Source: Pseudomonas sp. S35 (GTDB lineage Bacteria > Pseudomonadota > Gammaproteobacteria > Pseudomonadales > Pseudomonadaceae). Taken from it: DNA of 64,000 nt. Position 1 is the stretch's first letter. Every line of letters starts with the position of its first letter. The stretch is taken from contig NZ_CP019431.1 in the NCBI RefSeq assembly GCF_009866765.1, positions 992,001 to 1,056,000 of the forward strand, given 5' to 3'. This document shows, piece after piece, positions 9,536-24,949 of this stretch. The position numbers and the translations under genes were made by a program. Below the pieces are notes generated by a model. The model worked only from the letters and a program-made list of their open reading frames with translations. It did not search any database and was not told where the DNA came from.

Positions 9536-9606
9536 CGAAAAGCTCGGCGACTGGCGTTGGGGCGTTTTGCCAAATCATTAAGTCTTTTTCAGGGCTCCCC
9601 TAAAAA

Positions 9607-11763: not shown

Positions 11764-12779
11764 GACAATGACTCCGAACTAAAGAGCTCACTGAACAACC
11801 GCTCATCCAAGCTACCCACTGATTTCGCCATTTTCGCGGTCAGGTCCGCGCCGGATAAGTGCAGGTACATCAGGGTGGTTTTCGGATCGCGATGACCGGC
11901 GTAGGCCGTGAGCTCATGAAGCTTCCAGCCTGCGCGAGCCAAATGCGTCAACCGCAGGTGGCGGAAGGTGTGCGTGCTGAGACCGTCAAGGTCCGACTGC
12001 CTGGCCCAGGACTCTACTGTTTTACTCCAGGTCCAGCGTGTCAGCCCCGCGCCCCGGTTGCGGTCTGAATCGGAGCGAAACAATGGTCCTTTTGTCCACC
12101 CTGCACGGTGAAGCTGCTGAAGGTGGGCCATCAAGACCGGGGCAATGCCGGGGCTGTAACACACCACCCGACTACGTCGGCCCTTTGTGGTTTCAGCCCG
12201 CACCGAGATCAGTCGGTGTGCTACGTCCAGGTCTTCGATGTTTAAGGCCACCAATTCCGCACGGCGCAGTGCCCCGCAATACGCCAGCGAGAGCATCAGT
12301 CGGTCGCGCACCGACGCGCTGGCAGCGATGCTCAGGAAATGCCGCCATTGTTCATCGTTGAAGAGGTAGGGGAGTTTGACCAGACGCGGCACCAGGCCCC
12401 GGGTAAAGCCTGCGTGAGTCGGTGGGTGGAGCAGACGTGTGTGTTGCCCACGCGGTATGGGGTTTTGCTCGCGAAGCCCTTGGAAGACCAAATGGTCATA
12501 CCACAAACGGAGGGCACTGAGACGTTGGTGCAGGGTGGCATTCGCCACCGCACTGGCTTGACCGGGGAGAAGTTGGCGGATGTAGAGTGTGATCTGCTCG
12601 AAGGTTACGGCTTCAGCGTCCCACCCAGCGCTTTCGCAGTAGCCCAGGTAATGCGCCAGACCCCGCGCATACGCATCGAGCGTAGCCGGTGCACGGCCCA
12701 GGTTACCGAGCAGTTGCAGCCACTCTTCAACACTGGGGTAGCGGTTTAGCATCACGGCATAGGAGGAGGTGGAAGTCAT
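11760..12779 (-). CDS. XerC-like tyrosine recombinase (TnpA type)
   Basis: A phage-integrase-fold recombinase with a SAM-like N-terminal domain (about residues 10-100) and a C-terminal catalytic domain. Counting from an upstream in-frame start 19 codons earlier, the catalytic residues are Arg191 (GALRRAEL), Lys218, His289/Arg292 (HTFRH), His315 (AGHRD) and Tyr324 (LMYLHL). The start used here (MTSTSSYAV) follows a GGGGAG Shine-Dalgarno sequence. It reads away from the truncated rulB gene and overlaps the large recombinase. It most likely catalysed insertion of this module into rulB. Confidence 0.86.
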   Translation of the reverse strand: MTSTSSYAVMLNRYPSVEEWLQLLGNLGRAPATLDAYARGLAHYLGYCESAGWDAEAVTFEQITLYIRQLLPGQASAVANATLHQRLSALRLWYDHLVFQGLREQNPIPRGQHTRLLHPPTHAGFTRGLVPRLVKLPYLFNDEQWRHFLSIAASASVRDRLMLSLAYCGALRRAELVALNIEDLDVAHRLISVRAETTKGRRSRVVCYSPGIAPVLMAHLQQLHRAGWTKGPLFRSDSDRNRGAGLTRWTWSKTVESWARQSDLDGLSTHTFRHLRLTHLARAGWKLHELTAYAGHRDPKTTLMYLHLSGADLTAKMAKSVGSLDERLFSELFSSESLS

Positions 12780-12844
12780 GGGAGTCTCCCCAGAACGCCA
12801 GAGGCGTTCAGCGTAGCTCAAGAAAAAGCATTCCACCTAACCTA

Positions 12845-13099
12845 CTACAACGCATAATTGCTGCTGAACGCCACGATCCCATGCCGCCGCAACGTGTCCT
12901 TGATTTGAAAATACGGTGCGCCCATTTTAACGAAGGGCTTGGCGTCGTAGCTGCGCGCAATGACGCAACCATCGTTGTTGCTCAGAACGACGATGGGCGT
13001 GCTTGACAGGTCTGGCCGGAAAACACGCTCGCAGCTGGCATAGAAACTGTTGCAGTCCGCGAGCGCGAAGACCGGCAAGGTAGGATCGAGGGCGCTCAT
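12845..13099 (-). pseudogene. rulB: rulB/umuC-type Y-family DNA polymerase, truncated after 84 codons
   Basis: The N-terminus is a clear UmuC/RulB polymerase: FALADCNSFYASCERVFRPD, then VVLSNNDGCVIARSYDAK and GIVAFSSNYAL. The protein would normally run to about 420 residues, but the homology ends at SSNYAL, followed at once by a stop. The first metal-binding Asp is present but the rest of the catalytic site is lost, so this cannot be an active polymerase. The start overlaps the rulA stop (ATGA), the normal rulAB arrangement. The break point is the edge of the recombinase module. Confidence 0.92.
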
Positions 13100-13530
13100 G
13101 ATGAATGCTCATGGTCGCGCACGCTGTAGCTGACCACGCCCCATATCACCAACTCGTCCCCTTCCATCACGTGTCTGGGCGGGAATCTTGGGTTTTCGGC
13201 CATCAACACTACCTGGCCGTCACGCATGTGAAGGCGCTTGCAAACGGACTCGGTGTTGAGGGCTGCAATTACGATATCGCCATGGCGAGCCGTTTTGCTT
13301 CGATCGACGATCACCAGGTCACCGTTGAAAATGCCGGCTCCCTGCATGCTGTCGCCCGAAATCTTCGCCAAGTACACGTGCGGCGCTCGGATCTCAAAAA
13401 GCTCATCCAGCGATATTAATTTTTCTAGGTGGTCGGCCGCCGGCGATGGAAAGCCGGCCGAGACCTGGCTGGAATACATCGGTAGAGAATGGCCACCTGT
13501 GGAAATGGGACCAAGAAGGGTCGCGCTCAT
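13096..13530 (-). CDS. rulA: RulA/UmuD-type SOS mutagenesis protease
   Basis: An S24 peptidase-family protein of 144 residues. The self-cleavage site is Ala25-Gly26 (SAGFPSPAAD). The catalytic pair is Ser61 (SGDSM) and Lys98 (VCKRL), matching Ser60 and Lys97 of E. coli UmuD. After RecA-stimulated cleavage it normally activates the UmuC/RulB polymerase, but its partner here is broken. It is presumably LexA-controlled, since a LexA-like box lies just upstream. Mobile rulAB operons give UV tolerance in Pseudomonas; this copy is probably non-functional as a pair. Confidence 0.93.
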   Translation of the reverse strand: MSATLLGPISTGGHSLPMYSSQVSAGFPSPAADHLEKLISLDELFEIRAPHVYLAKISGDSMQGAGIFNGDLVIVDRSKTARHGDIVIAALNTESVCKRLHMRDGQVVLMAENPRFPPRHVMEGDELVIWGVVSYSVRDHEHSS

Positions 13531-13548
13531 AACCTGGCCTGAATTTAA

Positions 13549-13564
13549 CTGTATGGATAGCCAG
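13549..13564. promoter_or_regulatory. LexA (SOS) box upstream of rulAB
   Basis: CTGTATGGATAGCCAG matches the gammaproteobacterial LexA site CTGT-N8-ACAG in seven of eight outer positions. It lies about 20 bp upstream of the rulA start, where repression of an SOS operon is expected. Confidence 0.7.
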
Positions 13565-13636
13565 TTAACTGTTTGCTTGATGCCACGTCAATTTGATCCG
13601 ACCGAATGCCGGTTCTGGGTCAGTGACAGTGATGGC

Positions 13637-13665
13637 ATAAAAATGGCCACCCCGAAGGTGGCCTT
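13637..13665 (-). terminator. Rho-independent terminator after the SNF2-type gene
   Basis: Minus-strand GGCCACC-TTCG-GGGTGGCC with a stable UUCG tetraloop, followed by ATTTTTAT. It lies just past the stop of the SNF2-type gene and separates the ICE core operon from rulAB. Confidence 0.8.
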
Positions 13666-13669
13666 GTGG

Positions 13670-15910
13670 TCATACAGCAATTAATTGTCTAGCAAGTGCC
13701 ATTTCTACGGAGTCGCCATCCTGATTTAGAGAGTCGAGACCAGACTCCGGTACGTCTCCCGACGTGCTCTGAGCCACCGCGATCTTTTTGGCCATCAACT
13801 GCAAGCAGGTAATCTGCGAGCTTTGCGCATAGCCAAAAAACACCACCCGCACCGGGTGTTTCTGCCCGATCCTCCATGACCGCCGTGCTGCCTGCTGAAG
13901 GGTATAGACGTTATACCCGGTCTGCATGAACGCAATGGTCGGGAAGTCGAGCAGATCCAGTCCAGTTTTTACCAGCTCCGGGTTGGTGATCAGCACGTCG
14001 ACGCCGCGATCAACCTGATCCAGGATCCAGTCCTCGCGCCTGGACGTGTCGACCGAGGCTCTAAGGACTGCCACTTTTAAGCCTGCTTGTTCCAACAACC
14101 GCTTGAGTCTGCTGGTGGTGTCTCTCGTCCCGGTGTACACGGAGTAAGCCAAAACCTTCCGATTCTTTGCTTTCTCCGATAGGCACAGGTCCAACAGCGC
14201 CTTCTCCTTCGGCATCAGTTCATCGTCTGCGAAAATCGAAGGAACAAATGCCAGTGTTTCCTTGGAGCGGGGGTGTTTCACCACCTCCGGCCGGAAACAG
14301 CAGTCAGGCCATGCCAGCAGCACGTTGAGTACCACACCCAAAAGTGTGGTATCCCGGCGAGCAAGTGCCTGGCGAAGTTCAACAGCCAATGTTCCGGCTA
14401 GCTTCTGGTAAGCCGATCCCTGATCCAATGCCATGGGTACGTCGACCAGTTCCTCCTGATAATCGGGCAAGATGTTTCCACCGATGTCTTTGAGCTTCAA
14501 AAAGACGGTGAACGGCAATACGAAACGGTGAATACCTTTCGGGCCGAAACCCGGAGCTTTCACTGTACGCACTGAGAGTTTTTTACCCTTGGCGGTTTTG
14601 TGCGACTGATTGTCCCGCTCGCTGTAAATATCCTTCAGCACGCCATGATCACGCATGAACGACATGGCTGCAGGTGCCATGCTGCCGCGTGAGTTTGGTC
14701 GGTAACCGTCCTCGATCATGCGGCAGGTAAGGATACGAAACAGAAGGTAGAACAGATCGTCGGCATAGCCCCCCATGAGCGTGCCCGTCAGCAGCACGGT
14801 TTTACGTGCTTTTGCTGCCAGCACTCCCATGGCTTGGCCCTGGGCAGAGCCGCTGTTCTTGTACTCATGCCCTTCGTCCACCACCAGCAGGTCAAAATAT
14901 CCATCAGGCAAGTAGCGTTTGATGAATTCCGTAGGTTGATAGCCGCCTTCACCAAAGCCAAACTCAATGTTGGCCATGGCACGCTCCATGCGTTTGGCCT
15001 GCCGGTCGCTGAAGATGAAGTTGCCCTTGGCGTCCATTAGATTGATGAATTCGCTGACGTTATCGATCAGCATCGAGGCGAGAAAATCCTCCCCGAAGTC
15101 ATTCAGCAATCTGTCTGCACGTATTGGGCCGATGGTCGGAATTCGGCACATCGACTTCAGTATGGTTGCTCGACGTGTTCCGTTTTCGGCCTTGCCTGGA
15201 CGCATCAGCGTCCAGAGTTGGCCATGACAGTGAGGGCAGCTTTGACGGCGTTCCTCTCGGTGAAACTCTTCGACAGTGATCCTGTTGCCTTCTAGATCCT
15301 CCAGAAGACGGCCGCAATCTGGGCAGCCTGCAAAGCGGTGTCCGCCGGCTGAGCGACGTGACCAGCACGCGGGACGCCAGTGAAACCCCATCCGCATGCG
15401 CACGCGCCCTAGGATGAAGAACTCTTGCCGACCATCGTAGGGATCTCCCAGTTGATCACGCAGCTTGAGCAGTTTGACTAGGGTATCGGGGCCGTTGAGC
15501 ACCCAAACCCGAGCATCTGGGATGGTTTCAAGAATCTCTCGCCGCCATTTATAGACCAGGTGAGGAGGTGATACGACCAGGGTGCGGCGGTAGCCAGCGC
15601 CGTGCATCACGGCCGCAACAGCAATGGCCATCATGGTTTTACCTGTGCCCATTTCGGCGTTGATGACAGCGGCCTGCTCGTTGTGGTCCAGCAGCAGTGC
15701 GGTTACGGCCTGGACAACCTCGGCTTGCGCCGGGAACGGTTGGCGTTTGAGCGTGTTCATGATCCGTTGCCGGATTTCGTTGATGTTGCCAGCGTAAACC
15801 GGTGGGTTAGAGCGGTTGAGTGAATCCAGCAACTCATCACCGAACTCGTCGATAAATTCGGTCAAACTGATGGTCAAAGGTGGGCATGCGGTGTGTGATA
15901 GGTCGTTCAT
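13670..15910 (-). CDS. SNF2-family DEAD/DEAH ATPase with inserted zinc-finger region
   Basis: A 746-residue superfamily-2 ATPase of SNF2 type, acting on DNA or DNA-protein complexes. Walker A is GTGKT (about residues 88-92), the DEAH-like box is DEGH (345-348), and a C-terminal helicase lobe ends in a QAARRSWRIGQ arginine-finger motif. Between the first motifs is a four-Cys insert (Cys196, 199, 225, 228) that should bind zinc. The start with MNDLSHTA follows a GGAG site; an upstream start lacks one. It is next to a DUF6094 methyltransferase, a pairing common in this ICE class. The role is unknown. Confidence 0.85.
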   Translation of the reverse strand: MNDLSHTACPPLTISLTEFIDEFGDELLDSLNRSNPPVYAGNINEIRQRIMNTLKRQPFPAQAEVVQAVTALLLDHNEQAAVINAEMGTGKTMMAIAVAAVMHGAGYRRTLVVSPPHLVYKWRREILETIPDARVWVLNGPDTLVKLLKLRDQLGDPYDGRQEFFILGRVRMRMGFHWRPACWSRRSAGGHRFAGCPDCGRLLEDLEGNRITVEEFHREERRQSCPHCHGQLWTLMRPGKAENGTRRATILKSMCRIPTIGPIRADRLLNDFGEDFLASMLIDNVSEFINLMDAKGNFIFSDRQAKRMERAMANIEFGFGEGGYQPTEFIKRYLPDGYFDLLVVDEGHEYKNSGSAQGQAMGVLAAKARKTVLLTGTLMGGYADDLFYLLFRILTCRMIEDGYRPNSRGSMAPAAMSFMRDHGVLKDIYSERDNQSHKTAKGKKLSVRTVKAPGFGPKGIHRFVLPFTVFLKLKDIGGNILPDYQEELVDVPMALDQGSAYQKLAGTLAVELRQALARRDTTLLGVVLNVLLAWPDCCFRPEVVKHPRSKETLAFVPSIFADDELMPKEKALLDLCLSEKAKNRKVLAYSVYTGTRDTTSRLKRLLEQAGLKVAVLRASVDTSRREDWILDQVDRGVDVLITNPELVKTGLDLLDFPTIAFMQTGYNVYTLQQAARRSWRIGQKHPVRVVFFGYAQSSQITCLQLMAKKIAVAQSTSGDVPESGLDSLNQDGDSVEMALARQLIAV

Positions 15911-15939
15911 GTTTGTTTCTCCGTAAGGAATGAAACAGG

Positions 15940-15980
15940 GCATGCACGACACCCCGACGGGTATGGTGAATACCCTGGGG
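15940..15980 (-). promoter_or_regulatory. Structured leader (pseudoknot-like) before the SNF2-type gene
   Basis: Read on the minus strand: CCCC, then hairpin GGGTA-loop-TACCC, then GGGG. The loop holds CACC, which can pair with GGTG just after the stem. It has the same architecture as the other seven leaders of this region. Confidence 0.5.
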
Positions 15981-16006
15981 TCTGTTAAGGAAATACCTTA
16001 TAAGTG

Positions 16007-17464
16007 TCAGTAGTCCGATGGCAGCAACACGGTCGTGCTGCTCCGGTCCGCTTCCGTGATGATCCACAACCGTGTTTCATCGCCGGCATCGACGTTGTAG
16101 CTGGAAAACAATCGCTCCCCGGTAGTCAGTGCGCGCTGATTGCTGGTCCAGTCTTCATCGGGCAGTTCTCCCCAGTCACCCGAGAAATGGCGTCGTAAGT
16201 AAAGGCTAGGGTCGAGATGTCCTTGCTCTACTAGGTATTGCACCGAGTGGGTCATCACTAAGCGTCCGGGTTCAAATATCATCCGCGGTGCTTGGTTAGG
16301 AGTGGGAGTAGCTTCTGGTTCTTCAGGCCCAGTCTGTGGATCCGCCGATGAACTGATGGTGATCACCTTGCCGAAGTTGGTGGAGCCTGGCGTCATGTCC
16401 CATGCCCGAATAATGGGTACGAAACGATCTGTCAGGATCCTTACCTCTGAGACGTTGCCGTCCTGGTCTTCGGTGAACTCGGTCTTGCGGACCTTATCTT
16501 TGTAGGTGTCGCCCTTGAGTGCCAATACGCGACCGGTTTTGGATGTCACCACGCCGGATATCGCGCCGGCAGCCAAGGCCAACGCCAAGTGCCAACGCGA
16601 GAGTTCCCTTACGGGAGGTCGTGGCTGAGCGCCGCTTTGACCAAAATGCAGTGTGAAGTCCGGCCACATGCCACGAAGGCGTTTGACCTCATCGCTGAGC
16701 TGTTCAGGTTCAAGGCTGATACGGTAGAAGTGTTCCAGCTCAGTGGATGTCGGGAGAACCCTGTAGGGCTCCCATGGCCAACTCGTTGGTAACGCTTCCG
16801 CACTCAATGTGCCGGCGCCAATTGCCTGGAGGCGTGCGCGTACGTATTTGACCTCTTGCGGTCGAGCCAGGTCCTGGCGGCGAATACGAACACCGAAGAT
16901 CACCACCTGTTTGAAGGTTGGATCAGCGGCATTGTAGATCCGCAGTTCAGTGAAGTGGTTGCACAACCATCCGCATAGCTCATCGTCCAGCACGTAGTGC
17001 GGAACAATCAGCACCATGACCCCACCGTACTGCAGCAGTGGAAGCGCCCGTTGATAGAACATCTTCTCCAGGCGCCGACGGCCGTTACCTTGGTACTGTG
17101 ACGCACCTGCATGGTCAGCGACCAAGTCACCGTAGGGCGGGTTGAGCCAGAGCAGGCCAAAGGCTTGGCGGCTGATCATGGTGTCCATCAGATCGCTATG
17201 CAGCACGCGATCCAGCAGTTTCTTGCAGTGATTGGCACGTTCCTGGTCGTACTCGACTGCGTAAGTCTCTACGCGGTCACGTCCGAGCGCATGAGCCGTT
17301 TCAGCCAGCGCAACACCCTCACCAGCACAGGGATCAAAGATCCGCATCTTGCCAGTGGGAGAGGGTGCCAACGCCTGCAGGGTCCGTTCCAGCGTTATTT
17401 CGTCAGTGGGGTAGTAGCCATTGCGAGCGAAGTTGCGCGCCAAGCGTGGGAACATCAAGGCCAT
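16007..17464 (-). CDS. DUF6094-type adenine DNA methyltransferase-like protein
   Basis: A class I SAM-dependent methyltransferase of 485 residues. The SAM-binding motif is DPCAGEG (residues 44-50) and the catalytic motif IV NPPY (108-111), as in N6-adenine DNA methylases. The N-terminus FARNGYYPTDEITLERTLQAL is typical of the DUF6094 proteins found in ICEs. There is no restriction enzyme next to it, so it may protect or mark the element rather than be part of a restriction system. The next upstream gene ends 22 bp before its start, so it is read from the same transcript. Confidence 0.85.
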   Translation of the reverse strand: MALMFPRLARNFARNGYYPTDEITLERTLQALAPSPTGKMRIFDPCAGEGVALAETAHALGRDRVETYAVEYDQERANHCKKLLDRVLHSDLMDTMISRQAFGLLWLNPPYGDLVADHAGASQYQGNGRRRLEKMFYQRALPLLQYGGVMVLIVPHYVLDDELCGWLCNHFTELRIYNAADPTFKQVVIFGVRIRRQDLARPQEVKYVRARLQAIGAGTLSAEALPTSWPWEPYRVLPTSTELEHFYRISLEPEQLSDEVKRLRGMWPDFTLHFGQSGAQPRPPVRELSRWHLALALAAGAISGVVTSKTGRVLALKGDTYKDKVRKTEFTEDQDGNVSEVRILTDRFVPIIRAWDMTPGSTNFGKVITISSSADPQTGPEEPEATPTPNQAPRMIFEPGRLVMTHSVQYLVEQGHLDPSLYLRRHFSGDWGELPDEDWTSNQRALTTGERLFSSYNVDAGDETRLWIITEADRSSTTVLLPSDY

Positions 17465-17486
17465 GATGAGGCTCCTGAATCAAGGC

Positions 17487-18086
17487 TCAAAACTGAGCGT
17501 GGGTTGAGAGTTGCCCTTGGCGAATGAGATCGCCTAAAGCAGGTTCGAGGACGTCGAGTTGCAACGACAAACGCCATGCCGCGACAGCGCCGGATGTTCC
17601 GGGCAAGAGCTGCAACATGTCGTGTTGGGTGAGCCAGTCCATCACCGGCTTCTGCCAATGTGGCAGCAGTGGTAAAGGGCAGGTGTCCTGGATCAACGGC
17701 CAAAGCCTTTGATGAGGTGACTGCCCGTTCTCAAGAAGGGCGTAGGCGAAGTGGTTGGCTCGATCCGGCTGCACGCAGCGTCGGTCGAACAACCAGAGGT
17801 GAATCAAGCTGCCGAACAAAGTCCCGCGCATTTGACGCGTGGTGCGTTTTTCCAGCAGATCGATGTTGGGAAAGACGGGGAGACTTCGACCGTCCACAAC
17901 AAGGTGAAACTGACTCAGACCATCCTCGGCAGCGCCGAGGGTCAGCCTGGCCATGAACTCCTGCAGTGCCGTGTCACGGCCCCATGCAGAGAGAAACACC
18001 AAGTTGCGTTGCTCGTCACACGCGCAAGCGTCGACGAATAGGTCATTGCACTCCTCGATTGGGAAGAGCGGGGTAGGGCTGGGCAT
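17487..18086 (-). CDS. ICE-associated protein of unknown function
   Basis: A protein of 199 residues with no recognised domain. It starts MPSPTPLFPIEECNDLFVDA, and a GGAGG site 8 nt upstream selects this ATG over another four codons earlier. It is soluble, mixed alpha/beta in appearance, with several Trp and Leu-rich segments and no signal peptide. It sits directly before the DUF6094 methyltransferase gene and follows a structured leader, so it belongs to the ICE core operon. Confidence 0.7.
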   Translation of the reverse strand: MPSPTPLFPIEECNDLFVDACACDEQRNLVFLSAWGRDTALQEFMARLTLGAAEDGLSQFHLVVDGRSLPVFPNIDLLEKRTTRQMRGTLFGSLIHLWLFDRRCVQPDRANHFAYALLENGQSPHQRLWPLIQDTCPLPLLPHWQKPVMDWLTQHDMLQLLPGTSGAVAAWRLSLQLDVLEPALGDLIRQGQLSTHAQF

Positions 18087-18110
18087 GGGAACCTCCATTA
18101 TGAAGAGGGA

Positions 18111-18146
18111 ACCCGCCCGGAGGGGCGGTGAGCCCCTCGGGGGTGT
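18111..18146 (-). promoter_or_regulatory. Structured leader before the 199-residue unknown gene
   Basis: Minus strand: CACCCC, hairpin GAGGGG-CTCACCG-CCCCTC, then CGGGCGGGTT. Outer CCC/GGG pairing is possible. The loop-to-downstream pairing (ACC/GGT) is short here. Confidence 0.5.
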
Positions 18147-18158
18147 TATCAGTGAGTG

Positions 18159-18440
18159 TTATTGCTTGGGAAACAGCTCTACGTCCGATTTGAACGTTTT
18201 ATCGTTCGGGTCGAACGAAACCGTGTCGTTATGAAACAGAGGGCTGTGCTTAGTCAGAAAGATTTTTCCCAGGTACTGGGAGCGGAGTGCCACGGCGGCA
18301 TCAGCTTGTTCAGCCGTCATGTCGAGCTCTTCTATGAAGAAATCCCACAGTTCCTCATCCGTCGATACTTCGTTGTTGGCAAGTTGATCGTCGATATTGT
18401 TCAGAACTGCAGCGGTCAGGTTGCTGAAAATTGGGTTCAT
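18159..18440 (-). CDS. Small acidic ICE protein of unknown function
   Basis: 93 residues, starting MNPIFSNLTAAVL behind a good ACGGAG site; longer in-frame starts lack one. It is acidic, with a DDQLANNEVSTDEELWDFFIEELDMT stretch in its middle that could be a protein-binding helix pair. No family is recognised. It is preceded by one of the recurring hairpin leaders and is part of the run of small genes between SNF2 and the pilus operon. Confidence 0.65.
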   Translation of the reverse strand: MNPIFSNLTAAVLNNIDDQLANNEVSTDEELWDFFIEELDMTAEQADAAVALRSQYLGKIFLTKHSPLFHNDTVSFDPNDKTFKSDVELFPKQ

Positions 18441-18461
18441 ATAGTGCTCCGTAAATGCGAA

Positions 18462-18494
18462 GGAGCGCCCATGAGGGAGCCCCTCAAGGGTGGG
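18462..18494 (-). promoter_or_regulatory. Structured leader before the 93-residue gene
   Basis: Minus strand: CACCC, hairpin TGAGGG-GCT-CCCTCA, then TGGGC. The outer CCC/GGG pair is kept and the loop is short. The nearby GGAGC (the ribosome site) could pair with the GCTCC of the loop and stem, which would affect translation (inference). Confidence 0.5.
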
Positions 18495-18505
18495 TGTTGG
18501 AACAA

Positions 18506-19123
18506 TCAGAAATTGGAGATCGTCCAGACTTGTAGTTTGAAATCCAGCACGTAGCCGAGCTCGCCCAAGCGAGTGCATTGCTGACGTAAGCGGTGACGAT
18601 CAACGGTGGTGTCAAGCTTGACGGTATCGCCCAGAGGCCAGATTGTGCCGAACAGGTCCGCATCTTGTTCTGCGCTGCTGGTCATGTTCGGCAGAGGCAT
18701 TCCAAAGGGGGCATTCTCTGCTGCAGATGGTTCGACAGCGCCGTTTGCTCCCTTGGGCGACGCCAGCTTTTTACGTTGTTGGAGAGGCCTTGGCGGCGCT
18801 GAAGAGGTCTCTTCATCAATGGGGTCGGGCTCACTCGCAGAGAGCGTGGCAGCGTCTTCCGCTGTCAACTTATCCACATCGTCCAAGCTCATGCTTTCGA
18901 GTTTTGCACGAATCTCGACGACTAGCCGACCCGATGTCGAGTAGTACGAAGGGCGAATTTCTGTGATCAGGAAATCGCCTCGGTATTTACCCTCATTGTA
19001 CTGATCGAGGAGCGCGTCTTTGATGACGAACTCACCGATTGAAGTTGAAAGTCGTCCTACGTTGAAGTCGCCGTTACGGCCGCTGATGGTACGGATGGCC
19101 AGTTGGCCTGGGATGTTGATCAT
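18506..19123 (-). CDS. DUF3275 family ICE protein
   Basis: 205 residues. The N-terminal block MINIPGQLAIRTISGRNGDF followed by NVGRLSTSIGEFVIKDA is the hallmark of DUF3275, a family confined largely to ICEs of this class. A GTGGAGC site supports this ATG over one four codons upstream. The second half is Ser/Pro/Glu-rich, probably disordered, with an acidic EPDPIDEE run. The biochemical role is unknown. It is preceded by a terminator rather than the hairpin leader, unlike its neighbours. Confidence 0.85.
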   Translation of the reverse strand: MINIPGQLAIRTISGRNGDFNVGRLSTSIGEFVIKDALLDQYNEGKYRGDFLITEIRPSYYSTSGRLVVEIRAKLESMSLDDVDKLTAEDAATLSASEPDPIDEETSSAPPRPLQQRKKLASPKGANGAVEPSAAENAPFGMPLPNMTSSAEQDADLFGTIWPLGDTVKLDTTVDRHRLRQQCTRLGELGYVLDFKLQVWTISNF

Positions 19124-19146
19124 GTGCAGCTCCACACTGCTATGAA

Positions 19147-19174
19147 TGAAAAAAGCCCGACAAATGTCGGGCTT
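19147..19174 (-). terminator. Rho-independent terminator upstream of the DUF3275 gene
   Basis: Minus strand AGCCCGACA-TT-TGTCGGGCT followed by TTTTTC. It lies between the 111-residue small gene and DUF3275, so it ends or attenuates the transcript coming from upstream. Confidence 0.85.
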
Positions 19175-19201
19175 GGGGGAGTGCTGTGAATGCCGAAGCG
19201 G

Positions 19202-19537
19202 TTATGGGCAAGAAGTGTGCATTTCTTCTTTGAGTGAGATGTAGAGGTAGAAAACGCCAGGTGGCGATTCAATTCGGTCAAGTTTCAAGTCCAACCAGAC
19301 TCGATCTGAGCTGTTGCCGTCAGGCAGCAGGCGATAGAGGCCGAAATGGATCAGGTCGCTGTCAGGTTGCAAATGCAGCTCTCGGTAGGCCTCCAGGACA
19401 ACATCGCCCAGTCGCTGACTGATAACAGAGGCATCCTGTTGGTTTTCAATATGTACCGCTTCTTGCCAGGCCCTAGGGGTCAACACGACCGGTAGCTTGA
19501 GCAAATCAGGCGATACTAGGTGAGAAAGTTTTTTCAT
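19202..19537 (-). CDS. Small ICE protein, paralogue A
   Basis: 111 residues starting MKKLSHLVSPDLLKL after a CTGGAG site. No family is recognised. Its C-terminal half (RLLPDGNSSDRVWLDLKLDR, then ESPPGVF and HTSCP) closely resembles that of the next upstream gene, so the two are tandem paralogues. The shared part looks like a beta-rich domain ending in a conserved Ser-Cys-Pro. It is part of the run of small leader-controlled genes. Confidence 0.65.
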   Translation of the reverse strand: MKKLSHLVSPDLLKLPVVLTPRAWQEAVHIENQQDASVISQRLGDVVLEAYRELHLQPDSDLIHFGLYRLLPDGNSSDRVWLDLKLDRIESPPGVFYLYISLKEEMHTSCP

Positions 19538-19550
19538 GGTCGACTCCAGG

Positions 19551-19597
19551 TGTGAAAACCACCTGGCCCATACGGGAGGTGGTTTCCCGTTGGGTGT
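19551..19597 (-). promoter_or_regulatory. Structured leader with strong pseudoknot potential, before paralogue A
   Basis: Minus strand: CACCC, hairpin ACGGG-loop-CCCGT, then TGGGCC. The loop AAACCACCT is exactly complementary to the downstream AGGTGGTTT. This is the clearest copy of the motif. Confidence 0.6.
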
Positions 19598-19637
19598 GTA
19601 TAGGGTATTAAGACGGTGATTTAGGCTTTGTATCCTG

Positions 19638-20087
19638 TCAGTACTCGTCGTCACATGGGCAAGAAATGTGTATCTCTTGGACTCGGAAGTCGAGGGAGAA
19701 AACGCCAGGTGACGATTCATTTCGGTCAAGTCTCACGTCCAACAAGACTTGATCTGAACTGCCGTCAGGCAGCATTCGACACTCCTCGTCAGGCCCAAGC
19801 GCGAGTAGCTGCACTTCTTCTGCTATCAGGAACCCTTCTTCTTCAGTCAAGCGTGAACAAACTCTGCCATTAATGGCCGCGTGTACTCCCTTATCCCAAG
19901 CTCGATTGAGCGAGGGAACGGTCTTGAACAACTCGGGTACGTTGGGCAGGCCGGCGCGGTATGCGTCGGCGCCTAGGATATGAGCCTCGATCACATAGAT
20001 AATCTGATCAATCTTATTTTCAAAGATCACTGCTTTTGCATAAGCAACGCGTATGTCAAGAGCTTGTGTAAATAACGTGTTCATCAT
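19638..20087 (-). CDS. Small ICE protein, paralogue B
   Basis: 149 residues, starting MMNTLFTQALDIRVAY behind GGAG. The N-terminal half is helical and lacks a counterpart in paralogue A. The C-terminal half (RMLPDGSSDQVLLDVRLDR, ESSPGVF, HISCP) is shared with it. It ends in an acidic DDEY after the conserved Ser-Cys-Pro. Function unknown. A hairpin leader precedes it. Confidence 0.65.
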   Translation of the reverse strand: MMNTLFTQALDIRVAYAKAVIFENKIDQIIYVIEAHILGADAYRAGLPNVPELFKTVPSLNRAWDKGVHAAINGRVCSRLTEEEGFLIAEEVQLLALGPDEECRMLPDGSSDQVLLDVRLDRNESSPGVFSLDFRVQEIHISCPCDDEY

Positions 20088-20104
20088 GGTGAGTCTCCAA
20101 TGTA

Positions 20105-20143
20105 TGAGAATCACCGTACCCAGAAGGGCGGTGTTCCCTTCGG
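20105..20143 (-). promoter_or_regulatory. Structured leader before paralogue B
   Basis: Minus strand: hairpin GAAGGG-AACACCG-CCCTTC, then TGGGTACGGTG. Loop CACCG is complementary to downstream CGGTG. Confidence 0.55.
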
Positions 20144-20144
20144 A

Positions 20145-20171
20145 TGATGAAAGGCACCCGAAGGGTGCCTT
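20145..20171 (-). terminator. Probable terminator after the STY4534-family gene
   Basis: Minus strand AGGCACCC-TTC-GGGTGCCT followed by a short T run (TTTCATC). The stem is strong but the T tract weak, so partial termination is likely. Confidence 0.55.
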
Positions 20172-20184
20172 GCAACAGAGTGAA

Positions 20185-20721
20185 TCAAGATGCCTTACGC
20201 TGCCGTTTAGCAGGCGTTGGCTCCGGTTGTTCCTCCGCAACTGGCTCGATTGCTTCTTCGCTTTCGAGTGGTGCTTCAGATTGTGCTTCGCCTTGTTCAG
20301 CAACTGTTTCAACTTCACGAGGCTTGGCTTCATAAACGGTTTGCCCGTCTACCTTGATCCAGCCGATAAACAAAAGTCGTCCTTTGAGGCTTGCTCCAGG
20401 TTGACCCTTTTTATCGCCTTTCTCATAGGTAAAAGCATCGGTCCAGATATCGCCGATACGGAAGCTCACAAGGACCTTCTTTCCTGCTTCAACGGCCGCT
20501 TGGCTGCGACGAATCAGCTTTTCAGCTTCGGCGCCGACAATGTTGCAGTCGATGTAGGAGTACTCGGCTTCATCTGTAGAACCGCGCAGCGCCGCAACGG
20601 TGACAGCCATGAATGGCTTACCTTTGCCGCGAGGTTTCACTTCACGGATACGGTTGAGGTAACCGATACCAGTGGTGTGAAGGTCGAAGAATTTGGCTTC
20701 GTTGGTTTGAGTAGTGCTCAT
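20185..20721 (-). CDS. STY4534-family ICE protein (DUF3577)
   Basis: 178 residues from MSTTQTNEAKFFDLHTTGIG, with the DUF3577 features YLNRIREV, KGKPFMAVTVAALRG and YIDCNIVG. Such proteins are annotated as ICE replication proteins (STY4534 family of SPI-7) and look OB-fold/SSB-like, with a beta-rich core (about 1-130) and an acidic Glu/Pro tail, though the C-terminus ends basic (KRQRKAS). The start follows a TTGGAG site. It probably binds DNA or a replication partner during ICE excision and replication (family-level inference). Confidence 0.85.
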   Translation of the reverse strand: MSTTQTNEAKFFDLHTTGIGYLNRIREVKPRGKGKPFMAVTVAALRGSTDEAEYSYIDCNIVGAEAEKLIRRSQAAVEAGKKVLVSFRIGDIWTDAFTYEKGDKKGQPGASLKGRLLFIGWIKVDGQTVYEAKPREVETVAEQGEAQSEAPLESEEAIEPVAEEQPEPTPAKRQRKAS

Positions 20722-20751
20722 GATGATTCTCCAATTTCGAAATAACAGAAA

Positions 20752-20795
20752 GCGGAGAAACACTTCGCCCTTGGGGGAAAGTATTCCCCGCGAGG
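20752..20795 (-). promoter_or_regulatory. Structured leader before the STY4534-family gene
   Basis: Minus strand: CACCCT, hairpin GGGG-AATACTT-TCCCC, then AAGGGCGAAGTGTTTCTCCG. Loop AATACTT pairs throughout with AAGTGTT, allowing one G-U. It is near-identical in layout to the leader of the 99-residue gene. Confidence 0.6.
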
Positions 20796-20817
20796 GTGGT
20801 AGAGCTAAGGAGTTTGC

Positions 20818-21057
20818 TTAGTGCAAGAGTTTCATGGCAGCAATCAGCACACCAGTGGTGGCTGACAACATGACACCCATGCGAATGGTGAGTCTTACTT
20901 CGAGCTGAGCGATTTCAGCACGAATAGCAGTGATATCAGCTTTAGTGGCGAGTAGCGTGAGCATGTCGGTCTCCAAAGCCTCAATGACAGCATTAGCTTT
21001 CTGTTCCGATACGTTGATCGAGATCAGCGCTTGGTAGAGAGCCAGTTCGGTTTTCAT
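20818..21057 (-). CDS. Small coiled-coil membrane protein
   Basis: 79 residues, starting MKTELALYQALISINV after a strong GGAGGT site. A helical region with heptad-like spacing (AIRAEIAQLEVRLTIRMG) runs into a C-terminal hydrophobic segment (VMLSATTGVLIAAMKLL). It resembles the DUF1640/CCDC90-like small coiled-coil, tail-anchored proteins, but the match is loose. It may sit in the inner membrane with its coiled coil in the cytoplasm. Role unknown. Confidence 0.65.
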   Translation of the reverse strand: MKTELALYQALISINVSEQKANAVIEALETDMLTLLATKADITAIRAEIAQLEVRLTIRMGVMLSATTGVLIAAMKLLH

Positions 21058-21076
21058 CAGACCTCCAAAAAATTGA

Positions 21077-21110
21077 GAGGCCTGCCCTGACGGGGTAGGC
21101 CCGTCATGGG
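21077..21110 (-). promoter_or_regulatory. Structured leader before the coiled-coil gene
   Basis: Minus strand: CACCC, hairpin TGACGGG-CCTAC-CCCGTCA, then GGGCAGGCC. The AGGCC can pair with GGCCT at the stem-loop border. Confidence 0.5.
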
Positions 21111-21113
21111 TGG

Positions 21114-21251
21114 GGGAAGGTGCTTCCATCGACTTAGTCGACTGACCGCGCTGCCGGAAGCTATGGCGATCTTGGGAATGGATCAATGCGGTAAACCGCA
21201 TCGTAGTCTCTCGGATCCAGACTACTTGGGCATGTTGCTGACAACGTCAGC
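21114..21251 (-). repeat. Duplicated leader region, copy 1
   Basis: About 140 bp that match the region upstream of the 99-residue gene with many substitutions. Shared blocks are AAGGTGCTTC, GACCGCGCT, GACAACGTCAGC and, on the minus strand, GCTGACGTTGTCAGC (a palindrome) at the 5' end. It stands directly upstream of the coiled-coil gene leader, so it is probably a duplicated promoter or control region, or a duplicated small RNA. Confidence 0.65.
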
Positions 21252-21363
21252 GATACATGTGCAGATCATGAAAATACGAATGCCGCTTGTCAAGCCCCTC
21301 CCGTAAAAACTCCAATGAAGCCTTCCCAACGGGAAGGCTTCCTACGGGGAGAGGATAAGCGGC

Positions 21364-21663
21364 TTAGCAAGTTGCAGATGTCAGTGATCGCGCAATGGGT
21401 TTCTTACGAGACCGGCGAGCGGGTTTTTCGACCACTCGTGTATTTGCCGCGTACCAATGGTTCAGATCAACACCTTTACGAGCTAATGCTGGCAGGTGAT
21501 CCATTTCACGCACCAGGCGATCGGGTACGCAAGGTGGAGGAAGCAATGGACCTGCTTTGGCATGGATAGCGGTAGGCGCAGCGCTAGGTTTTCTCATGGC
21601 GCGCAGGAAACTACGCGTGACAGTGCCGATCGCGAAACCCAAGCTGTAAGCGAGTTTGGACAT
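21364..21663 (-). CDS. Small basic protein of unknown function
   Basis: 99 residues, starting MSKLAYSLGFAIGTVTRSFL after a CAGGAG site. It has a short hydrophobic N-terminus followed by a Pro-rich middle and a very basic tail (RRSRKKPIARS). It could be a small membrane-attached or nucleic-acid-binding protein. No family is recognised. It is the first of the small-gene run after the pilus operon and has both the hairpin leader and a duplicated 140-bp control region upstream. Confidence 0.55.
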   Translation of the reverse strand: MSKLAYSLGFAIGTVTRSFLRAMRKPSAAPTAIHAKAGPLLPPPCVPDRLVREMDHLPALARKGVDLNHWYAANTRVVEKPARRSRKKPIARSLTSATC

Positions 21664-21687
21664 GGTGATTCTCCTGCAGGTTAAGTG

Positions 21688-21731
21688 CGGAGAACACACT
21701 GGCCCTGTTGGGGAAGTGATTCCCCGCGAGG
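21688..21731 (-). promoter_or_regulatory. Structured leader before the 99-residue gene
   Basis: Minus strand: ACCTCGC, hairpin GGGG-AATCACT-TCCCC, then CAGGGCCAGTGTGTTCTCCG. Loop CACT pairs with downstream AGTG. Very similar to the leader of the STY4534-family gene. Confidence 0.6.
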
Positions 21732-21734
21732 TGA

Positions 21735-21874
21735 GTTGCTTAAGGTGCTTCTATCGACAGTTGCCGACCGACCGCGCTACCAGAAGCTCAGCGGTCTTGG
21801 GCGGATCAGACACGAAAATCGTATCGCAGTCTTCAAGATCCTGACTGCCTGGGCATGATGCTGACAACGTCAGC
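21735..21874 (-). repeat. Duplicated leader region, copy 2
   Basis: The second copy of the region described upstream of the coiled-coil gene. The same blocks occur in the same order, ending with the palindrome GCTGAC-AAC-GTCAGC. Divergence is substantial, so the duplication is not recent, yet the palindrome is exact in both. Confidence 0.65.
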
Positions 21875-22209
21875 AAAACACGCTCATATCATCGAAGGGG
21901 GGAAGTGATGTGTCAAGCGGGAGGGGAAATTCGGGGGAAGGCAAAAGCAGATTTAACTGAACAGGAGAAACTACCGAGAGTAGCTGGGTCAACAGTCACC
22001 CTCGGTTGTAGTTAAGACACGTCTTTCAGAAAAAAATACCACCTGTGAGAGATTGAGAAGTCATCGATCCCTGGGCTGTGATCTAAACATCTCACTTCCT
22101 ACACCTGGCCGATTATCGTGGCTGAGGCCAGCAAACATAAGGCACGCATCCGCGCACAAAAGGAGCCCTGCGTTTCGCCGGCGGGCCACCGGCAGGGAAA
22201 AGCGGCTAC

Positions 22210-22257
22210 CAATGGGTAGCCTGATCATCCTTTGCAAGACGATCAGGCTACCCATTG
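22210..22257. repeat. 17-bp perfect inverted repeat with 14-nt spacer
   Basis: CAATGGGTAGCCTGATC and its exact reverse complement GATCAGGCTACCCATTG are separated by ATCCTTTGCAAGAC. The stem is perfect and no T run follows on either strand, so it is not a standard terminator. It may be a small-RNA structure, a protein-binding site or a mobile-element end. Confidence 0.8.
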
Positions 22258-22264
22258 TGTGAGC

Positions 22265-22302
22265 TTTAAAAAGTATGGGCCACAACACCAGTGTGGCCCT
22301 TA
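22265..22302 (-). terminator. Probable terminator after the pilus operon
   Basis: Minus strand GGGCCACA-CTGGTGT-TGTGGCCC followed by ATACTTTTT. It lies about 300 bp beyond pilM in the direction of transcription, a likely end of the pilus transcript. Confidence 0.6.
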
Positions 22303-22595
22303 GACTACGGTGCTTCGAACCTCAACAAAGCCCTATGTGCCTATGAACTCGCAATTCACGAGTTAGACGGCTGCGTGTCTGGCTTGGACAGGGAGACACA
22401 GGGAGAGCCTTGAATCAGGTCCGCACGCCCTTCCCGGAGCTATGCGTGCTTTAGGGTTGATGATGAGGCACGCCGCATCACCGGGCGCTACTGATGACCG
22501 CCAGTAGCCAGCGGGGTGGAAACTTTGTCGCGTTCATTATGTTGAGAGCCCGAGGTATATGCAACCTCGCACCGGATACAAAGACGCTAATCAAG

Positions 22596-23036
22596 TCAGT
22601 TGACTGCCACGGCTGCGCCTTCAGGAATGACGTTGGGGAGAATGATGTCTGTTTTTCCCGACCTGGGCGAAATCAACACTCCTGCTCGGTTCACTCCTAC
22701 TGTGATCGACTGGGTTCGCTCCACCAAAGCTGCAGGTAATCCTGGAGGTGCCGTACCCGCAAAGTAGGTATAGCTTTGTCCCGCAGATATGTAGGTCATA
22801 ACCCCTGGAGGTTTTGAAAACCATGCTGGCAGGTTGAGTGCTTCATCAGCCGGCGTCCCTGTATACCCGGCGTTTGCCTTCGCATACTCAGCTGCTGCGG
22901 ATCTATAGACGAGCAAATTGCGACTCAGAGAGTCGAGGGTCGCATAGTCTGTGATTTGTTCGGATTGCTTTTGCTGTTGATTGAACAAACCCACAGCGAT
23001 CAGCAGGATTGTGAGAACTGCCCAATTTAGCGACAT
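22596..23036 (-). CDS. pilM: PilM-type conjugative pilus protein
   Basis: 146 residues with an N-terminal membrane anchor (SLNWAVLTILLIAVGLF), then a helical stretch and a small C-terminal domain. The size, anchor and place at the end of a pilL-to-pilV operon match PilM of the R64/PAPI-1 type IVb thin pilus. It presumably helps assemble the pilus at the inner membrane. An unknown open frame of about 440 bp separates it from pilV. Confidence 0.75.
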   Translation of the reverse strand: MSLNWAVLTILLIAVGLFNQQQKQSEQITDYATLDSLSRNLLVYRSAAAEYAKANAGYTGTPADEALNLPAWFSKPPGVMTYISAGQSYTYFAGTAPPGLPAALVERTQSITVGVNRAGVLISPRSGKTDIILPNVIPEGAAVAVN

Positions 23037-23182
23037 GACTGAGCCTCAAGAGTGTCAGACGTAATTGTCACCGAAGCTCAACCAGATCGTCTTGGGAAAA
23101 TACGAGGTCGGGCTACAACAGATTTTGCTGCTTCGGACTATAGTCGGCTGACGACAATAGTCAGGCCCTCAGAGTTCGAAAG

Positions 23183-23623
23183 CTAAGCTCGTATTTGCCG
23201 AGCTAAAAGTAAAGAGTAATATAATATAATGCAGGTAGTTATAATTATTGCTGTAAGTTTCAAAGGGTGTCGATCTGCAAAGGAAGTGGTCTTTCTTACT
23301 TTGTGGGCTGCTGAAATAATATCAGAGGTTTTTACGCATATAACTCTATATCGTCCTGATCCTAATGGGGTAAGGCGATAGGTGTGATCTCCTACCTCGA
23401 AGGCTTCTAAGCCCTTAAGGGCCGGAGCCCATAATGCGCTTGAGCAAATCCGGCTTCTAGAATTTAGCCATGCTTGCAGCTGATGATCATTATATTCAGT
23501 GCCATTCTCAAGGTGGTCCATCAAGCAAGTACCTGTCAGCAGCATAGGAAAATTGGTTTTACGACCAGATCTCAACGCATATGAATGAATATCAACAAAC
23601 AAAACGCAAAAGTATTCGTGCAA
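23183..23623 (-). CDS. Hypothetical AT-rich membrane-anchored protein between pilV and pilM
   Basis: An open frame of up to 146 residues, AT-rich compared with its neighbours, ending in a hydrophobic anchor (LTAIIITTCIILYYSLLLA). The longest version starts with TTG; internal ATGs (MLLTGTC, MDHLEN) are possible and none has a good ribosome site. No family is recognised. Its base composition and place inside an otherwise standard pilus operon suggest an acquired insertion. An alternative is that it is untranslated sequence. Confidence 0.45.
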   Translation of the reverse strand: MHEYFCVLFVDIHSYALRSGRKTNFPMLLTGTCLMDHLENGTEYNDHQLQAWLNSRSRICSSALWAPALKGLEAFEVGDHTYRLTPLGSGRYRVICVKTSDIISAAHKVRKTTSFADRHPLKLTAIIITTCIILYYSLLLARQIRA

Positions 23624-23626
23624 ACA

Positions 23627-24949
23627 CTATTTTAGGCACTGCCAATAAAATACCCCAGCCCAACCAGCTCTGACCGCGTAAAGAAACCAGTTCCCAGCTC
23701 CGTCCCGATACACTTGACCGGACTCGTCTTGACCAACGGCCGCAGCACCAGAGAGAGTACATATAGTCCAAGTTGAGTCAGCAATAGCACAAACGTTTGG
23801 ATTCCATCCGCCGTAACCCTGGCAGGCGCCGGAGATGTAGTTTTTGAATTTTGCCCCGGTGATAGTCCACACCCCGGATTGGCACGAAAGTGGTATGCCC
23901 GCCGCATTTTTTGCCATGAGCCTGTTGTCATTGCACGCTGCTCCCTCTGTCGCTTGGCCACCGATCGATAGAAATTCATTGGTCGAGAGACGGCCGTTGG
24001 CACTAATGGTGCCGGTCGAGGTGACCTGTCCAGCAGCAACTGTCCCACCTGTAGAGAGCCCTTTGTTGTTATAGACACGCACCCAGTCAGAATCGGACTG
24101 GTAGATGCCTCCACCCCATTTCTCGCTGTACCAGCCAGTATCACCTCGAGTTCTGAACCAGCCCCCTGTGTAGGTCTCGCCAGTGACGTTCGCAGTTGCT
24201 GCGGATACAGTGTTCGTCGCTGTCACATTTCGAGCATTGACGTCAGCGCCTGTGGTCACATTGCCGGTAGCCGTAATTGCAGCCGCATTGTTGATATTGT
24301 GGCCGCCTAAACTGAGGTCGGTGTTCATGGTGTTGAGCTCGGGATGTCCCGGCACCGCGTTGCGATATAGGTAGTCATTGGCGAGTTGGCCATCCATCAG
24401 GAACAATGCGCTGGCGGTATGACCTGGACCAGGGTTGATAGAGTAATTACTTAGCGCTACCTGCCAGCCCCCGCGTACACCCTGAACGATGTTAGGGTTG
24501 GTTGAAGAAATGAAACCACCAGGTCCGCCTAGATTTTCAGCGATGACACGAATGCCCATTTCTGGGATTGTTTGCCCACCTGTGGTGACGACGATCACCT
24601 CCAGTTGGTTGGGATTAGGCTTCCGGGCCAGGCCGAGAATGGTCTGCCCGAAGGTATTGGTGGAGCTAAAACCTGCAGGAAGATAGCTGGTGTTGATCAG
24701 CATCGGAACGGTAATTTGCGCTGGTACGGTCGCTGTAGCGTTGTTCAATAAGGCATTGAAATTGTCCTTCATGTATTTTGCCACTGCTTCAGAGATGGTT
24801 CTCTGTTGATCTGCGGCAATGCGGTAATCCTGACCGTCCATTTGCCTGATTTGCCATATTGTCGCCAAGGTGACGACGACGGAAAAGACGATCAATCCGA
24901 TTGCCATATCCAGGCTCAAGAACCCCCGCTGTTTGTTTTTACTGGTCAT
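23627..24949 (-). CDS. pilV: PilV minor pilin / tip adhesin
   Basis: 440 residues. The type IV prepilin leader is short (MTSKNKQRG cut before FLSLD) followed by a hydrophobic helix. The middle matches the shufflon-type PilV N-terminal domain, including GGWFRTRGDTGWYSEKWGGG. The C-terminal region is Gly/Cys-rich and would sit at the pilus tip, choosing recipient cells. In R64 this end is shuffled by the Rci recombinase; no rci gene or inverted C-terminal segments are seen here. The start overlaps the end of pilT. Confidence 0.9.
   Translation of the reverse strand: MTSKNKQRGFLSLDMAIGLIVFSVVVTLATIWQIRQMDGQDYRIAADQQRTISEAVAKYMKDNFNALLNNATATVPAQITVPMLINTSYLPAGFSSTNTFGQTILGLARKPNPNQLEVIVVTTGGQTIPEMGIRVIAENLGGPGGFISSTNPNIVQGVRGGWQVALSNYSINPGPGHTASALFLMDGQLANDYLYRNAVPGHPELNTMNTDLSLGGHNINNAAAITATGNVTTGADVNARNVTATNTVSAATANVTGETYTGGWFRTRGDTGWYSEKWGGGIYQSDSDWVRVYNNKGLSTGGTVAAGQVTSTGTISANGRLSTNEFLSIGGQATEGAACNDNRLMAKNAAGIPLSCQSGVWTITGAKFKNYISGACQGYGGWNPNVCAIADSTWTICTLSGAAAVGQDESGQVYRDGAGNWFLYAVRAGWAGVFYWQCLK

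Follow-up and report, generated by a model that had tools for sequence, protein, structure and literature searches.

We analyzed a stretch of 64,000 nucleotides (nt) from Pseudomonas sp. S35 (contig NZ_CP019431.1, positions 992,001 to 1,056,000; hereafter the window), which lies within the single 6.6-Mb contig of this genome. The subject of the analysis is a row of ten minus-strand genes at approximately 13.7-21.7 kb of the window and the structured leaders that precede most of them. By comparison of gene order, the row resembles that of pKLC102. Its products are a DUF3577 protein, a DUF3275 protein, a DUF6094 methyltransferase, an SNF2/DEAD helicase and unknown proteins. Eight of the ten genes carry a leader; the DUF3275 gene (19123) and the methyltransferase gene (17464) are the only ones without it. 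Throughout, 'leader before N' refers to the leader ahead of the gene whose start is at window position N. An earlier note, made from the sequence alone, had reported eight minus-strand leaders of one plan. The five that it named (before 15910, 19537, 20087, 20721 and 21663) are where it had placed them, and three more, before 18086, 18440 and 21057, fit the same description.

Leaders in the gene row

From 5' to 3', a leader consists of CCC (one strand of helix P1), segment A (the 5' arm and loop of the G/C hairpin P2), segment B (the 3' arm of P2), GGG (the other strand of P1), segment D and segment E, which extends from the Shine-Dalgarno (SD) sequence through the start codon. Segment D is complementary to the P2 loop, to E and often also to the arm within A. 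A resembles E, and the two vie for D. This is especially clear in a Nitrogeniibacter plasmid (A GGGAGATCTCAC, D GATGCGATCTCCC, E GGAGATCGCATC) and in ICEhin1056 (A GGGGAAAC, D GGTTTCTCC, E GGAGAAACC). P1 and the upper part of P2 remain CCC:GGG and GGG:CCC in most alignment rows.

Leaders were detected with a covariance model, R1, built from 23 leaders and describing P1, P2 and sequence, with neither loop:D nor D:E pairs included. With filters off, the eight leaders rank first in the region 13000-24000 (20.2-50.5 bits, E-values from 1e-4 to 5e-14). The next-best match (11.7 bits, E 0.045) is antisense to one of them. Since the eight were training members, their scores are high partly by construction. 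With default filters, seven of the eight are recovered from the entire 64 kb at E <1e-3, and nothing else scores below E 0.26; the weakest is the leader before 15910 (9.3 bits, E 1.4).

All eight leaders lie on the minus strand. Leader 1 (21661-21733; R1 score 40.8 bits) precedes a 99-residue open reading frame (ORF, 21364-21663); the 5' strand of P1 is at 21729-21733, the P2 hairpin at 21710-21725, GGG at 21703-21705, D at 21689-21701 and E, from SD to ATG, at 21661-21674. Leader 2 (21055-21112; 20.2 bits), ahead of a 79-residue ORF (20818-21057), has P2 at 21088-21106, GGG at 21085-21087, D at 21075-21084 and E at 21055-21066, and its D:E helix (-14.7 kcal/mol) is the strongest among the eight. 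The DUF3577 gene (20185-20721) is preceded by leader 3 (20719-20798; 50.5 bits), with P2 at 20774-20789, GGG at 20768-20770, D at 20754-20766 and E at 20719-20732. Of the 30 DUF3577 matches that were fetched, most show the plan of this leader upstream when inspected by eye.

Leader 4 (20085-20146; 29.4 bits; P2 20123-20141, GGG 20119-20121, D 20106-20117, E 20085-20098) stands before a 149-residue ORF (19638-20087), and leader 5 (19535-19596; 32.4 bits; P2 19572-19590, GGG 19567-19569, D 19553-19566, SD region 19535-19552) before a 111-residue ORF (19202-19537); the latter leader has the strongest loop:D pairing of the eight. A C-terminal stretch, LLPDGxSSDxVxLDxxLDRxE, is common to the two adjacent genes (19202-20087), which resemble a duplicated pair. 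The leaders of this pair are unlike in loop, D and E, each keeping its own pairing.

Leader 6 (18438-18492; 23.0 bits; P2 18472-18486, GGG 18468-18470, D 18462-18468, E 18438-18450), before a 93-residue ORF (18159-18440), has a 3-nt loop, and its main pairing is GCTCC:GGAGC with the SD. Leader 7 (18084-18144; 28.1 bits; P2 18120-18138, GGG 18116-18118, D 18105-18115, E 18084-18096) precedes a 199-residue ORF (17487-18086). The most diverged of the eight is leader 8 (15908-15980; 22.3 bits with filters off; P2 15959-15975, GGGG 15952-15955, D 15932-15946, E 15908-15922), ahead of the SNF2/DEAD helicase gene (13670-15910); helicase leaders at other loci were detected. Inspection by eye found no U-tract directly after P2 or P1 in any of the eight, and the identity of intrinsic terminators was rejected. 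A hairpin before 19123, considered as a ninth copy, is terminator-like instead.

Occurrence beyond the window

Searches with R1 yielded 102 matches (E<=1) in 23 sources, training leaders included, 63 (E<=0.1) in 11 named Pseudomonas or Stutzerimonas loci, and 128 (E<=0.1) in 29 loci, of which 26 belong to other genera (the far set). An SD, an ATG and an open frame follow within 80 nt in 247 of 293 R1 matches, compared with 150 of 2000 random places. One follow-up used 93 of the 102 rows, omitting eight antisense images and a weak match (L038 6189); the broader swap analysis described below drew on all 102. Three loci (L124, L131 and L132) were excluded from the far set, leaving 124 of its 128 rows, and L059, L061 and L062 were omitted from the Pseudomonas and Stutzerimonas loci because they duplicate L033, L032 and L034.

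The S35 genome itself has 11 matches at E<=1: seven in the window, two in a second element at approximately 2.13 Mb (one with E 0.9) and two that are probably false. The latter (2594163 and 2387602) have no SD, ATG and ORF within 80 nt, and the first looks coding. In an even sample of the class, R1 matches at E<=0.001 occur in 24 of 369 genomes (S35 included), at least two of them in 14 genomes; with no more than 16 candidates scored per genome, these counts are lower bounds. Among the matches listed, DUF3577 is found in 20 of the 369 genomes, and 16 have both DUF3577 and a leader. In the phylum sample, 15 of 398 genomes have matches. Six genomes from other classes of the phylum, with a single match each (E 6e-5 to 9e-4), were not counted as finds.

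The covariance-model search proposed in the earlier note places the leader in pKLC102 and ICEhin1056. Of the 12 plus-strand genes of pKLC102 that run from the gene after pilM to the helicase gene, 10 have a leader; three of the ten, at E 0.1-0.5, were accepted by eye. One more weak match (E 0.4) falls within pilO2, and no match at E<=2 was obtained from 49 kb holding transfer and other genes. At 9550-9597 of the pKLC102 locus there is a plus-strand leader with an SD and perhaps a TTG start codon. It falls within a gene that the annotation places on the minus strand (9528-9707), and a small gene may have been missed there. ICEhin1056 has three matches (E 0.01, 0.03 and 0.8) and a fourth leader identified by eye. 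The SGI-4 record has one match at E 0.005, a Vibrio and a Burkholderia plasmid have best matches at E 1e-6 and 4e-5, and the Nitrogeniibacter plasmid has a match at E 0.3 that is clear by eye.

The earlier note had assigned the leaders to small genes of integrative and conjugative elements (ICEs). ICEs do carry them, but the description is too narrow, as an IncC plasmid and other plasmids have them too. The IncC plasmid has ten plus-strand matches at E<=0.01; eight of these lie immediately ahead of annotated genes, among them ssb, bet and exo. R1 also finds leaders in an Alcaligenes plasmid. Two coding sequences of the IncC plasmid (9428 and 14263, approximately 5 kb apart) have near-identical leader-type upstream stretches that R1 did not list at E<=5. 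Such stretches outside the R1 matches indicate that the family is probably wider than the model finds. Scans of F (40 kb), R388 (whole) and pCAR1 (50 kb) gave a single match at E<=2, in pCAR1 (E 0.84).

The 242 distinct proteins encoded behind leaders form 66 BLAST clusters, 25 with at least two members and 41 singletons, some of which are perhaps spurious ORFs. Thus, the leader is not tied to one gene family. Pfam assigns DUF3577, helicase, methyltransferase, RecT, AAA (CbbQ-like), VWA/CobT and primase-type domains to these proteins. Others we take, by eye and from familiar signatures, to be RadC-, ArdC- and DUF932-like.

Competition for segment D

To assess pairing in the window, we compared the own pairs of the eight leaders with all 40320 re-pairings, the segment limits being set by hand. 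The own loop:D pairs average -4.79 kcal/mol versus -2.96 for re-pairings, and 34 of the 40320 are as good. With two arm bases added on each side, the values are -9.62 versus -6.76 (125 as good). The corresponding results are -11.36 versus -8.42 for D:E (112 as good) and -13.32 versus -8.91 for A:D (3 as good). The A:D and loop:D tests are not independent, because A:D contains loop:D. The A:B swap result was set aside as evidence, P2 having been chosen for complementarity. The strict loop:D pairing is strong at 19537 (-12.3), 20087 (-7.5), 20721 (-5.1) and 15910 (-4.2). The claim that the loop pairs just downstream is therefore upheld beyond chance for the set, but in about half of the eight this pairing is weak.

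The same holds for a much broader collection. After matches lacking P2, a start codon or 10 nt of D had been dropped, 243 of the 293 were left. For 96 leaders below 70% identity, the z-scores for loop:D, D:E and A:D are -12.7, -16.2 and -17.3, with none of 5000 permutations as good, and those of the control pairs are -0.9 (arm:E) and -0.6 (B:D). The far set taken alone (54 leaders, other genera) gives -9.5, -11.8 and -12.9 (controls -1.0 and -1.7). For named plasmids and ICEs, 41 of 55 matches were used (the others being antisense, weak or lacking a nearby gene) and 33 leaders parsed; they yield -10.0, -10.6 and -13.7 (controls 1.3 and -0.3). The 16 IncC and Alcaligenes leaders by themselves give -6.1, -7.1 and -8.0 (controls 1.8 and 0.1). 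Swaps confined to single loci, with 214 of the 243 leaders from 41 loci and related loci not thinned, give -13.2, -13.9 and -15.6 (B:D control -0.1). Moreover, lower P2 covaries in a largely independent alignment, with 76 double-change cells versus 30.6 upon shuffling. Its covariation score is 0.185, compared with 0.076 for shuffled data and at most 0.065 at any slide, although the count of P2 pairs showing such a change falls within the usual range (5 versus 3.8 shuffled; 98/500).

Both helices, loop:D and D:E, reach at least 4 bp in 223 of the 243 leaders tested, and in 189 of these 223 they use common D bases, a count made without a chance control. D:E is the stronger helix in 74% of the 96 leaders (medians -14.75 versus -9.7). 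The minimum free energy folds of the eight window leaders contain P2, mostly with P1, plus a hairpin pairing the SD; in all eight, 2 to 4 of the 4 SD bases are paired. The probability of the SD being unpaired is 0.24 for the 96 leaders versus 0.37 for 304 other ORF starts at the same loci (p 6e-7). As computed, the leaders are predicted to have mutually exclusive SD-hiding and SD-freeing folds, one of the features of a translational riboswitch. The pseudoknot-like character seen in the earlier note is retained in loop:D, but the main feature is a three-way competition between loop or arm, D and SD, with D:E as the predicted default.

The competition of A and E for D gives the leader the appearance of a translational switch. 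We consider it probable that every leader acts in cis, as an RNA, to switch translation of the gene it precedes, as modeled from the computed folds, covariation, competition for D and position before the start codon. An SD sequestered in the predicted ground state would also be expected of an RNA thermometer or of static, low-level occlusion of the ribosome-binding site. Neither requires a conserved P1/P2 core or loop:D complementarity, and we regard both as very unlikely.

A candidate translational switch and its neighbors

Could the signals reside in DNA rather than RNA? Operators, that is, inverted repeats bound by a transcription regulator, were the alternative offered in the earlier note. 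They would agree with short G/C dyads ahead of genes, with some leaders that fold equally well antisense and with D:E pairs lacking a G-U bias. On the other hand, the copies share little sequence beyond the G/C core: loop, D and E differ between copies in one element, and D matches specifically the SD region of the gene it precedes. In addition, strict loop:D keeps G-U over A-C pairs (20 versus 5; 228 versus 134 when swapped). The A:D excess of G-U (89 to 19) may largely reflect one recurrent place, GGGG in A and CUCC in D. An open frame of at least 60 codons ends no more than 60 nt upstream of P1 in 56 of the 96 leaders, compared with 236 of 1000 random places, implying that many leaders lie between genes that are possibly co-transcribed. 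Overall, the fit of D to its own SD region, the loop:D G-U bias, the gene position and the low SD accessibility favor RNA, and we consider operators very unlikely here.

The frames that often end 10-60 nt before P1 would also suit translational coupling, in which ribosomes on the upstream gene bring about attenuation. Yet the distance from frame end to P1 varies, leader 2 of the window lies approximately 250 nt past the preceding stop, behind a radC RNA, and a non-systematic inspection of the eight by eye revealed no leader peptide. We consider coupling very unlikely.

A number of observations count against such a switch. Strict loop:D is weak (-3.1 to -1.5) at 21663, 18440, 21057 and 18086, the last (leader 7) being the weakest of the eight at -1.5; in these leaders either nearby arm bases carry the pairing or little of it remains. 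In some leaders pseudoknot formation displaces only part of D:E, and the energies of loop:D and D:E are uncorrelated (r 0.08). D:E has no excess of G-U over A-C (24 versus 17 outside the SD, 48 versus 49 overall), so that its RNA nature is argued from position and competition. The antisense fold is more stable than the sense fold in four of the eight leaders by energy and in two by z-score. Neither of these last two results adds anything to the case for RNA. The arm:E control within loci is not quite flat (z -2.1; 38/2000). Finally, no compensatory change was seen in P1, and 50 of 363 P1 cells are unpaired, for which reason P1 is perhaps a recognized sequence and not a helix.

As for the mechanism of the proposed switch, P1 (CCC:GGG) and P2 would present the loop. 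In the predicted ground state, D:E would hide the ribosome site (OFF). The loop:D pseudoknot on the P1/P2 core, able to form first during transcription, would remove D and expose the site (ON). We infer that the pseudoknot is the ON state because D is the anti-SD strand. P1 and upper P2 are largely constant, while D, A and E change together from gene to gene; thus, the core in all copies could be read by one common factor (a host protein, a small molecule or the folding pathway itself), which would set all genes of the module together. The conserved core might be an aptamer but is small, and a protein-binding site would fit just as well. Its occurrence on different backbones, from Haemophilus to Pseudomonas, leads us to prefer a factor or signal acting host-wide, or a delay built into folding, to a regulator specific to the element.

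The switch might instead be self-timed and need no ligand: an early pseudoknot would admit a few ribosomes before the stronger D:E closes the gene, producing a short pulse of translation. Loop:D can indeed form before E is transcribed, D:E is usually the stronger helix, and the presence of the motif across different elements and hosts makes an element-specific factor unnecessary. Self-timing leaves the sequence constancy of P1 and upper P2 unexplained, and we consider it rather unlikely.

Translational switches in which the SD is sequestered are already known. In pseudoknot riboswitches of the SAM-II, SAM/SAH and preQ1 translational types, the SD usually lies inside the pseudoknot and the ligand turns expression OFF. 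The leaders share with them a small hairpin, a loop pairing downstream and proximity to the SD, but their pseudoknot takes the anti-SD strand (ON expected), they occur in many copies per element before different gene families, and they have no known ligand. In erm-type attenuators, four segments pair 1:2 and 3:4, hiding the SD, or form an alternative pairing that frees it. Alternative pairings hide or free the SD in the leaders too, which differ in pseudoknot topology, in having one copy per gene and in showing no leader peptide by eye. The traJ/FinP-FinO system of plasmid F likewise acts on conjugative-element genes through pairing at the ribosome site, a post-transcriptional control that needs an antisense RNA. 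As the leaders differ in D and loop, one small RNA is unlikely to pair with all of them, unlike FinP.

The three-way design in which A mimics the ribosome site, the many copies per element and the wide spread appear new. Literature searches, at the level of result listings, returned no description of the leader. The 224-motif paper of Weinberg et al. (2017) reportedly includes a motif named DUF3577, which may be an earlier sighting of part of the family. Overall, the swap tests support, by computation, the earlier picture of a paralogous RNA plan with covarying pairing, one per gene and probably controlling translation.

A more far-reaching interpretation, which we put forward tentatively and rate at somewhat below even, is a horizontally spread class of RNA switches, with the same P1/P2 core fitted to the ribosome sites of dozens of unrelated genes. 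One host-wide signal, or fresh transcription after entry, might then open the DNA-repair, DNA-modification and replication module of pKLC102, ICEhin1056 and IncC plasmids at once, as an element-carried post-transcriptional regulon. To our knowledge, co-activation of DNA-processing genes in conjugative elements has been studied mostly at promoters. The leaders suggest a second, RNA-level layer of control in these well-known elements, with one switch per gene. The model is explicit to the base pair and hence testable, the conserved core may serve as bait for the signal, and the leader offers a sequence handle for recognizing modules of unidentified genes.

Scans against Rfam release 15 found no family over the leaders, except that three radC 3' ends overlap leader matches by 34-37 nt, in keeping with the statement of the earlier note that no described motif was known. 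These scans covered the window (13-24 kb at E<=10), 18 DUF3577 loci (E<=0.5), 19 of the 29 far loci, eight loci including pKLC102 and four plasmid or ICE loci (E<=1); L152, the IncC plasmid locus (L157), L158 and ten far loci lay outside them. Weak matches to miRNA, snoRNA and viral families were far below gathering scores and were dismissed.

Two radC RNAs (RF01754) lie on the minus strand of the window: one at 21747-21892, ending 9 nt before the leader-1 match, and one at 21122-21269, ending 6 nt before the leader-2 match. Of 25 radC RNAs from the window, L120 and eight other loci, 23 are followed after 5-58 nt by a leader match or overlap one by 34-37 nt. Like the leaders, radC and STAXI (RF01728) RNAs are candidate RNAs of mobile elements, but sequence and fold set them apart. 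The leaders are not radC RNA itself, whose 149-position consensus precedes them or overlaps only their start. Among the 19 far loci scanned, radC is present in L120 only, and many leaders have neither radC nor STAXI. In the SGI-4 record, a STAXI RNA (7684-7835) lies approximately 60 nt before the DUF3577 leader, in the slot directly before leaders that is held elsewhere by radC. Rfam types radC as cis-regulatory, and a section of PMC2864571 lists it among other candidate RNAs. As an idea only, STAXI and radC may both be promoter-proximal, perhaps single-stranded-DNA promoters like Frpo.

Elsewhere in the window, at 12845-13530, a gene that looks by eye LexA/UmuD-like is followed by an 84-residue UmuC-like fragment. 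The fragment ends where two tyrosine-recombinase-like genes (9607-12836) start, and looks interrupted by an insertion. A long near-perfect inverted repeat, GGGTAGCCTGATC..GATCAGGCTACCC, at 22206-22262 weakly matches an Rfam miRNA model on both strands.

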